In this document: positions 2,207 through 26,796 of the stretch, in pieces
Numbering within the stretch: the first letter of the stretch is position 1
How the letters are laid out: the number at the start of each line of letters is the position of its first letter
Source of the DNA: Lysobacterales bacterium
GTDB taxonomy: Bacteria; Pseudomonadota; Gammaproteobacteria; Xanthomonadales; Rhodanobacteraceae
DNA length: 35,993 nt
Reading direction: 5' to 3'
NCBI GenBank assembly: GCA_014338185.1
Contig: QUBV01000031.1
Span: forward strand, 1 to 35,993
Notes under the pieces: model-generated
What the model was told of the DNA's origin: nothing
The model's input: only the letters and a program-made list of their open reading frames with translations
Database searches by the model: none
Position numbers and translations under genes: made by a program

Positions 2207-3745
2207 ATGCGCGCACTGCTGCCGATGCTGTGGTTGCTGGCCACGACTGCGAGCGCGGGCGAGTGCGAGCGACCGGGCGACACGTTGTTCGCCAGCGGCT
2301 TCGAGCGCGTGCCCGCGCAGGCCTACTACGTGGCGCCCACGGGCGCCGACAGCAACGATGGCAGCCTCACCGCGCCGTGGCGCACGCTGCAGCATGCCGT
2401 GGACCTGGCGGACGCGGGCACGGTGGTGTGCGTGCGCGAGGGCGTGTACAACGAACTGGTCACGCTCACCCGCTCGGGCTCGGCGGCGGCCGGGCCGATC
2501 GTGCTGCAGGCGGTGCCGGGCGAGGCTGCGGTGATCGACGGCGCGGGCCTGCCGATCCCGGACGGCCAGTACGGACTCCTCACCCTCATCGACGTGAGCC
2601 ACGTGACCGTGCGCGGACTGGAACTGCGCAATTACGTGACCGCCTCGACCGCCAAGGTGCCGATCGGCCTGTACCTGACCGGCGCCGGCAGCCATATCCG
2701 CCTGCTTGGCAACCACATCCACGACATCCGCAACACCGGCAACGGCTGTGCCGCCAACGCCTTCGGTCTCAAGGTCGACGGCACGCGCGCGCCCGAGTCG
2801 ATCAACCAGCTGGTGATCGCGGGCAACGAGATCGACCACCTCGTGCTCGGCTGCAGCGAGTCGTTCTCGCTCGACGGCAACGTCGAGCACTGGATCATCA
2901 GCGACAACCTCGTGCACGACACCAACAATATCGGCATCGGCGCGATCGGCTTCGAGGGCGTTGCGCCCGATCCCGCCTGGGACCAGGCGCGCGATGGCGT
3001 GATCAGCGGCAACACCGTCTACAACATCAGCTCGTACGGCAACCCGGCCTACGGCAACGAATATGCCGCCGATGGCATCTACGTCGATGGTGGCACGCGC
3101 ATCCTCATCGAGCGCAACCGCGTGCACCACGTCGACATCGGCATCGAGGTCGCCAGCGAACATGCCGGGCGCACCAGCAGCCAGGTCATCGTGCGCAACA
3201 ACCTCGTCTACTTCGGCAACTCGGCGGGCATTTCCATCGGCGGCTACGCCGCGGGCGTCGGCGGCAGCAGCCAGGTCACGATCCTCGGCAACACGCTGTT
3301 CCACAACGATCGGCAGGACACCGGCTCGGGCGAGTTCCAGATCCAGTTCCACGCCAGCGACAACCTGTTCGCGAACAACCTCGTGCATGCAGGCGCGGCC
3401 GGCGTGCTGGTGAGCGCGTGGACCGGTGACACGCCATCGCCCGCGGCGCTCGACCACAACCTGTACTACTCCGACGCCGGCGCGGCCGGCTCGTACTGGA
3501 TCTGGCGTGGCGTCGAATACGATTCCCTGGCCGGCTATCGCGCGGGCGCGGGGCAGGATGCCCATTCGCCGTTCGCCGATCCGCTGTTGCTCGACCCGCT
3601 GCTGCCCGACCTGCGCCTGGGCGTGGCCTCGCCCGCGATCGACGCCGGCAGCACCGCGGGCAGCCTGCCCGTCGGGCCGCTCGATTTTGGCGGCCGGGCG
3701 CGCGTACGCGGCAACGCCATCGACATCGGCGCCTGGGAATACTGA
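2207..3745 (+). CDS. secreted right-handed parallel beta-helix protein
   Basis: A 512-residue exported protein of the pectate-lyase-like superfold, probably acting on or binding polysaccharide; the substrate is unknown. Residues 1-17 form a Sec signal peptide ([17 protein letters not shown]). Directly after it lies DTLFASGFE (residues 25-33), the short acidic-aromatic motif shared by several exported proteins in this window. The body opens with [14 protein letters not shown] and [13 protein letters not shown], the typical start of DUF1565/beta-helix proteins, followed by repeated coils rich in NxxxxN and GIxIG patterns up to the C-terminus (IDIGAWEY, a common end of this family). The start at 2207 is supported by AAGGGGA at 2194-2200. 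It is divergent from fadH and followed by a 158-base gap before acnD. No catalytic residues could be assigned. Confidence 0.85.
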
Positions 3746-3903
3746 CGCCATGGGCGCTGTGGCGGCCCGGGCGGCATGCACGGCGGGCGCGGCGTCGGGC
3801 CGGTGGCGCGTCGGCGCTGCGCAGAGCGTGGTCGCGGTTCCGGCGCAGCGCGGTTGGCCGCCAATCGGCGACAATGGCGCTTTGCCTGCCGCCAGCCACC
3901 GCC

Positions 3904-26485: not shown

Positions 26486-26487
26486 GG

Positions 26488-26796
26488 TCAGGGTTCGAAG
26501 TTGTCAGCGAAGATTTGTTCCATGGTGAGCAAGGTGACCTTGTTCTCCTTTCGCTTGCCGACCACAAGGCGTTGTCGTGTCGGATCGTAGTCTTGCACCA
26601 ACAGGCCGCCGCCCTCGGCGACATTTCCCGTCGCGCTGTTCCACGCCGCCACGTGGCCCACGAGGCGCTGGCGTCCGTTTGCCAGCGTGATCGCCCCTGC
26701 ATTGCTGATGCCGCTGCCGGACCATTGCTCGGAACGAATCACATAGTTTCCATCCGCCAAGGCAATGATGTCCGCACCGATGGGGGCGGTTTGCAT
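26488..26796 (-). pseudogene. 3' remnant of a secreted repeat protein with terminal IFADNFEP
   Basis: The 102 codons look like the last repeats of a larger extracellular protein: ALADGNYVIRSEQWS and NAGAITLANGRQRLVG resemble the short (L)xNGNYVVxSxxW...NAGAVTxxNG repeats found in bacterial surface proteins annotated as DUF5650 or hemagglutinin-like. There is no signal peptide and no ribosome-binding site at the only ATG, and upstream the frame closes at a stop near 26870, so the 5' part appears to be lost. The C-terminus MEQIFADNFEP carries the acidic-aromatic motif found on other exported proteins here, with Asn replacing Gly. A short intact gene is possible but less likely. Confidence 0.55.

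Follow-up and report, generated by a model that had tools for sequence, protein, structure and literature searches.

One question raised by this locus is whether a nine-residue motif that recurs on otherwise unrelated exported proteins is a signal and, if it is, which machine reads it. The window, by which we mean the whole 35,993-nucleotide stretch of Lysobacterales contig QUBV01000031.1 (assembly GCA_014338185.1), had been reported in an earlier note to hold five copies of the motif. A scan of all six frames of the window with the pattern [DE].[ILV][FY]..[GN]F[DE] returned exactly these five and no others, with the starts given there in every case and the ends in four; the end of ERIFRNGFD had been placed at 6588, which is 3 too far (the correct span is 6559-6585). 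The tags and their hosts in the window are as follows.

2207..3745, + strand: exported right-handed beta-helix protein with a choice-of-anchor Q domain and an N-terminal tag (PF13229, NF041518, signal-peptide-like start)
2279..2305, + strand: tag DTLFASGFE, directly after the signal peptide (pattern scan)
6550..8085, - strand: exported protein with a C-terminal tag (signal-peptide-like start; TSP3 repeat only in Pfam)
6559..6585, - strand: tag ERIFRNGFD, 2 residues ahead of the stop (pattern scan)
18479..20200, + strand: exported DUF1800 protein with an N-terminal tag (PF08811 in one member of A1; homologues keep the tag)
18554..18580, + strand: tag DRIFRYGFD, near the mature N-terminus and ahead of the predicted fold (pattern scan, alignment, model)
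21696..22205, + strand: small exported protein with a C-terminal tag (signal-peptide-like start; without a Pfam match; cytochrome-like according to the earlier note)
22158..22184, + strand: tag DTVYRDGFD, 6 residues ahead of the stop (pattern scan)
26488..26742, - strand: 84-residue fragment with a DUF5650 repeat and the tag at its end (PF18888)
26494..26520, - strand: tag EQIFADNFE, 1 residue ahead of the stop (pattern scan)

Two of the five tags therefore lie just after a signal-peptide-like start and three lie 1, 2 and 6 residues from a stop. Under a crude hydropathy rule, four of the hosts have a signal-peptide-like start and the DUF5650 fragment does not. The pectate lyase named at 6550-8085 found no confirmation, as Pfam gives a TSP3 repeat only; we take this protein to be pectate-lyase-like solely from an N-terminal signature. 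Pfam has no match for the cytochrome-like host of the tag at 22158. The DUF1800 gene is adjacent to a DUF1501 gene (18479-21689), and of this pair only the DUF1800 protein is tagged.

Placement and consensus of the tag

The DNA form of the pattern matches the 3.17 Mb genome 87 times compared with once for the reversed pattern, and 87 is an undercount because this form misses the window copy at 2279. A scan of the same DNA with the protein pattern gave a slightly different set that, coincidentally, also numbers 87. A chance origin of the tag is ruled out by the reversed-pattern controls. Of the 86 distinct sites in the DNA around the matches, 71 are no more than 25 residues away from a stop; for 67 the distance is at most 10 residues, and 19 form the exact C-terminal end. 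The remaining 15 comprise 4 directly behind a signal-peptide-like start (the window copy at 18554, L012, L017 and L035, to which the window copy at 2279 adds a fifth), 6 that are internal in ORFs with such a start (L019, L039, L047, L051, L064 and L068) and about 5 apparent chance matches (L007, L013, L021 and L050, together with one to a response-regulator-like protein in L068). The earlier note had named random positions and equal frequency in cytoplasmic proteins as observations that would speak against a sorting role; instead, 71 of the 86 sites are near a C-terminus and few matches fall in proteins that lack a signal-peptide-like start.

The consensus of the tag is D-x-[ILV]-F-x-[DN]-G-F-[DE]. 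Among 69 C-terminal copies from this genome, position 8 is always F (69), D1 and F4 each occur in 66, [DN]6 and G7 each in 62, and I3 in 60. The longest tail that follows the tag in these 69 copies has 21 residues and is rich in P, G and A. The 98 copies from other loci, a set that was itself chosen by the pattern, agree with this consensus. Leaving position 7 free reveals dialects, in which the residue is mostly R in G037, G009 and G139 (genera g31 and g70) and often S in G006 and G017 (genus g28). The relaxed pattern carries a background of two families with an ancestral match, one with [DE]R[IL]F[YF]DSF[DE] after GPPAM (L220, L245, L391 and L393) and one with EP[VL]FDN[RL]F[DE] (L213, L214 and L216).

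Two minor features of the copies were also seen. Tandem pairs, spaced 10 to 18 residues from start to start, occur in L075, where the pair is near the C-terminus, and at G057:C17:340954-341009 and G098:C3:9229-9287. In addition, the paralogues at L002, L029 and L045 of this genome have a common C-terminal region with differing versions of the tag at its end.

Diversity and export of the carriers

We profiled 79 of 81 carrier ORFs, leaving out the chance response-regulator match and a 13-residue piece at a contig edge. At E 0.01, and with related models counted separately, their matches span 71 Pfam families, and the 25 families listed include beta-helix (12), RCC1 (4), subtilases (4) and LRR (3) as well as collagenase, carboxypeptidase, DUF1800 and others. 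NCBIfam places choice-of-anchor Q domains in 15 of the 79 and choice-of-anchor J domains in 4, the name 'choice-of-anchor' referring to alternative sorting signals. No NCBIfam model of the tag itself is among the 25 listed of the 69 families that the carriers match, and we found no earlier description of the tag in the open-licence papers searched or in the families displayed.

A signal-peptide-like start is present, by the crude hydropathy rule, in 43 of the 54 C-terminal carriers of this genome with a closed 5′ end and absent from 11. At 16 loci titled Marinicella, it is present in 11 of 12 tagged ORFs versus 25 of 66 untagged ones. The carriers thus show the trait of the sorting-tag class: proteins that are exported, unrelated and, in some cases, equipped with choice-of-anchor domains have a terminal motif in common. 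The inner-membrane signal peptide of T2SS substrates is found in the same 43 of 54 carriers under this crude rule. Type I secretion combines a C-terminal signal with the absence of a signal peptide; most carriers, by the same rule, have a signal-peptide-like start.

Distribution among genomes

Matches to the strict pattern range from 0 to 183 per genome across 299 genomes of the order (controls, 0 to 3), with 73 to 183 in each of the 4 genomes of the same genus, and from 0 to 5 in those of 397 genomes drawn from the phylum that lie outside the order. In the genomes sampled, the tag does not extend beyond one order. At least 117 named stretches match, and the 80 that were listed include stretches titled Marinicella and Dokdonella, one each from Tahibacter and Rudaea, Lysobacterales-type MAGs, bins whose names go only to class or phylum, and a single Lacinutrix match that is probably due to chance. 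C-terminal tags were also observed in MAGs titled Xanthomonas and Alcanivoracaceae (L088 and L096), which are perhaps mislabelled bins. Below, we refer to genomes with at least 8 pattern matches as tag-rich and to the others as tag-poor.

The N-terminal copy in DUF1800 proteins

We searched 24 genomes with the DUF1800 protein of the window and compared 29 loci besides its own (L262-L290), which represent part of the strong matches. Close homologues are present at 22 of the 29, all in tag-rich genomes, and have a full or degenerate tag between the signal peptide and the domain. The N-terminal tags are therefore real, and the copy in the DUF1800 family is conserved across genera; loss from close homologues, a further objection anticipated in the earlier note, is not what these proteins show. 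Alignment of 23 rows shows conservation at the tag, with F33 in 22 of 23 rows, an acidic residue at 34 in 22, F29 in 19, D26 in 16 and G32 in 14, and the variable positions are 2, 5 and 6 of the tag and the surrounding leader. In an AlphaFold2 model of the protein (pTM 0.85), the confidence is below 50 for residues 15-32, which lie ahead of the folded domain; the tag occupies residues 26-34. Seven distant DUF1800 proteins have no tag, a contrast that is uninformative because they come from tag-poor genomes (L274, L276, L277 and L279) and tag-rich genomes (L275, L278 and L280, in G002, G008 and G057) alike.

Co-occurrence with a second T2SS

The T2SS is the sole machine that we profiled against the tag, and another gene may track the tag equally well. 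When 38 genomes were searched for GspD, each of the 22 tag-rich ones had two T2SS secretins above the cut-off, whereas the 16 tag-poor genomes have one (12 genomes), none (2 genomes), two (G061) or three (G074). Each of the 15 other tag-rich genomes in this comparison has a counterpart that shares at least 42% identity with the GspD-B of the genome studied here (G000:C32:89628-91397). Identity to this copy is 23-33% for other secretins and 34.7% for the second secretin of G061. In a tree of 48 secretin sequences, A and B form separate clades, with tag-poor hosts at several separate places in the A clade.

Across the 299 genomes of the order, GspD-B (scored as present at E <= 1e-100 or as one of 6 partial matches judged to be fragments) occurs in 98 of 111 tag-rich versus 19 of 188 tag-poor genomes, with a Fisher value of 4e-44 that takes no account of relatedness. 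Both tag states occur within f1 and within f2, with matching presence of B (in f1, 11 of 11 tag-rich versus 2 of 65 tag-poor genomes), and f8 is the least tidy family, in which tag and B are discordant. A second GspG is likewise found in 15 of 15 B-positive versus 0 of 9 B-negative genomes. Tagged genes are not linked to the T2SS-B loci, as only 4 matches lie in 3 of 32 such loci and none at the loci read in G257, G230, G082 and G176.

The 13 tag-rich genomes without a GspD-B match are G048, G059, G063, G097, G118, G122, G123, G168, G178, G182, G188, G209 and G212. Eight of these are less than 90% complete, and G118 and G123 have short GspD fragments of unproven type. G063 is 97% complete, and the tags sampled in it are mostly genuine C-terminal copies; one full GspD, which is not B-like, and a PilQ-like match are all that was found in it. 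Together with G097 and G048, it is an unexplained exception. The 19 tag-poor genomes with GspD-B include several small genomes of genus g31, G230, G257, G082, G176 and others; the GspC proteins of the four named genomes give PDZ-like matches below the cut-off. GspD-B-like secretins occur at L407 (G257) and at G275:C1:372308-374137 in the otherwise B-negative genus g12, and the grouping of the G257 secretin with family f2 in the tree suggests transfer.

By gene order, system A looks like a full Xps-type cluster. The T2SS-B of G057 is encoded at two loci, one with gspC-gspD-gspE-gspF followed by ftsE-ftsX, and one with gspG-H-I-J-K. At the former (L341), the secretin, ATPase and platform all exceed the T2SS cut-offs (GspD, 505.8 bits; GspE, 630.7 bits; GspF, 437 bits). 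The system has pseudopilins of its own, GspG to GspK: in L372, G, I and K are over the Pfam cut-off, J is below it, and H is assigned by position and by a prepilin motif just below the cut-off. Neither GspL nor GspM was seen at the two loci read in G057. GspC-B combines an HR domain (PF11356, over the cut-off in L341, L331, L321 and L412) with a PDZ domain (over the Pfam cut-off in L341, L321 and L412, and below it in L331 and L407-L410). Its profile matches the PDZ domains of OutC, PulC and EpsC in the PDB, and the NCBIfam GspC models score below the cut-off on it. PDZ domains are absent from the three XpsN proteins checked.

The second T2SS of the family f2 genome G061 resembles T2SS-B in its PDZ-like GspC (GspD, the 34.7% given above); G061 has no tag excess. 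Distant B-like systems with a PDZ-like GspC occur in f2 genomes without tag excess at L352 (G061) and L411 (G231), and these are perhaps the Xcs system of Xanthomonas. A match between the position-7 dialects and GspC residues was considered and rejected. Acidic PDZ columns are special to R7 genomes (12 R7 versus 25 G7 sequences), with E at alignment column 253 in 12 of 12 R7 versus 0 of 25 G7 sequences, and this pattern is confounded by common ancestry, all R7 sequences here being from genus g31.

A probable recruitment tag for T2SS-B

The earlier note had proposed a sorting, surface-attachment or partner-binding tag and left its partner unnamed. Sorting or partner binding is the best reading of a motif that is found at the termini of unrelated exported proteins, conserved in homologues, restricted to one lineage and linked to a second T2SS. 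We consider it fairly probable that the motif is a portable linear recruitment tag, functional at either terminus and recognized by T2SS-B, and we infer that T2SS-B exports the tagged proteins, a partnership that rests on co-occurrence. A Sec-exported protein would display the tag at a free end, usually as its last residues and sometimes as its first residues after signal-peptide cleavage. T2SS-B, with gspC-D-E-F at one locus and gspG-H-I-J-K at another, and kept by part of the order beside the Xps-type T2SS, would then recognize it.

GspC-B is a candidate first receptor: its PDZ domain or its HR domain might read the tag as a short hairpin formed by the x-[DN]-G turn; this is a guess, and one that we would sooner doubt than rely on. 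Counter to a PDZ reading, for which the last residue of canonical ligands is hydrophobic, the tag ends in D or E and up to 21 residues may come after it. Copies exist at both termini, so recognition by the receptor is not expected to require a free carboxylate, nor would a tag that is active at either end be expected to rely on a membrane sortase to cleave it. A stronger version of the recruitment reading, which we hold tentatively and somewhat short of even confidence, is that this would be the first linear portable T2SS signal: nine residues at either end would suffice for a dedicated second T2SS, and the tag and the GspC/GspD surface would co-evolve as the G, R and S dialects of position 7. 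If this were true, T2SS specificity could be rewired by a one-residue swap.

Alternatively, the carriers may leave through a T2SS, perhaps T2SS-B, and the tag may then anchor them on the cell as a docking peptide for an outer-surface receptor or matrix. The choice-of-anchor domains among the carriers and the use of either terminus would fit docking, as would T2SS cargo that stays surface-bound, known in Vibrio from part of the account in PMC13393428. However, no receptor candidate was identified among the recurrent untagged neighbours (sigma factor, kinase and AcrB-type pump), and docking alone does not predict the link to T2SS-B; we regard it as unlikely. Less likely still is that the tag and T2SS-B are merely co-inherited, as old traits of the order that were lost together in several lineages, with the tag serving another machine or a chaperone. 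GspD-B looks vertically inherited in the secretin tree, the 19 genomes with B but without many tags and the 13 with tags but without B belong to counts that ignore phylogeny, and family f8 is discordant. Against this, tag-rich and tag-poor genomes occur together in f1 and in f2, and B matches the tag state in both families (11 of 11 versus 2 of 65 in f1), such that unlinked joint loss would need repeating.

We give very little credence to the tag being a fold element (the last strand of domains) or a stability signal read by proteases of the periplasm, for example DegP or Prc. Its shortness and terminal position would suit this reading, and PDZ proteases read C-terminal peptides. Yet the hosts come from many families, N-terminal copies exist, the tag precedes the predicted fold of the DUF1800 protein, and its restriction to one lineage contrasts with periplasmic proteases such as DegP and Prc, which are widespread.

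Comparison with known signals

The many-to-one logic of the tag, in which one short terminal signal is carried by many unrelated exported proteins, is also that of GlyGly-CTERM/rhombosortase, LPXTG and PEP-CTERM. The tag differs from GlyGly-CTERM and its kin in that it has no transmembrane helix or basic tail, often ends at its signature and has N-terminal copies, and for these reasons no membrane sortase step is expected. A signal of the LPXTG, PEP-CTERM or GlyGly-CTERM type was rejected because 19 of the 71 C-terminal copies of this genome end at F-[DE] and the longest tail among 69 is 21 residues. The T9SS uses a C-terminal address on many surface proteins for one dedicated machine, and this address is a whole Ig-like domain that is cleaved; the tag is likewise a C-terminal address on many proteins, but of nine residues. 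Species with GlyGly-CTERM in general also have a T2SS, and no particular T2SS subclass goes with rhombosortase according to passages of PMC3237569, whereas the tag marks a particular second T2SS.

T2SSs export folded periplasmic proteins, the PDZ of OutC binds a disordered loop of PelI and the PDZ of EpsC is required for VesB, as parts of PMC12369372 and PMC7949064 describe. In the PelI/Pel3 and VesB cases, the part of the substrate that contacts the PDZ of GspC is a flexible loop or an Ig-fold (PMC7949064, PMC12369372). These signals are composite, structural and substrate-specific, whereas the tag is one linear sequence. The absence of a linear universal T2SS signal is said, in a passage of the 2025 paper PMC12369372, to mean that the information is structural. 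How a T2SS chooses its cargo is an open question, which a tag that tracks one T2SS subtype makes simply testable. With the tag, a large part of the secretome of these bacteria would also become predictable from sequence, and biotechnology could use it as a label for export.

Genes that recur near tagged genes and T2SS-B

In a neighbourhood comparison of 785 ORFs around tagged genes, the untagged clusters that recur include an ECF sigma factor at 6 loci, a Ser/Thr kinase at 8 and an AcrB-type pump at 5. The ECF sigma factor (PF07638) and the kinase, which often has TPRs, are paired near some tagged genes. A relative of the kinase is present at 5 of 70 tag loci of this genome and 8 of 80 other tag loci, with both genes at 3 and 6 of these, respectively. 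At T2SS-B loci, the kinase occurs in 7 of 19 (six in family f1 and one in f9) and both genes in 5. The kinase was found at none of 15 system-A loci of tag-rich genomes, 8 of tag-poor genomes, 7 pseudopilin loci, 30 DUF1800 loci and 4 B loci of tag-poor genomes, a comparison between loci that differ in length. Pairs were located as follows.

L321:14465-17623, L341:1444-4909, L105:3-1965 and L166:1991-5202: ECF sigma factor and Ser/Thr kinase pairs

It is possible that this pair is a common regulator of the tagged genes and T2SS-B rather than a receptor of the tag.
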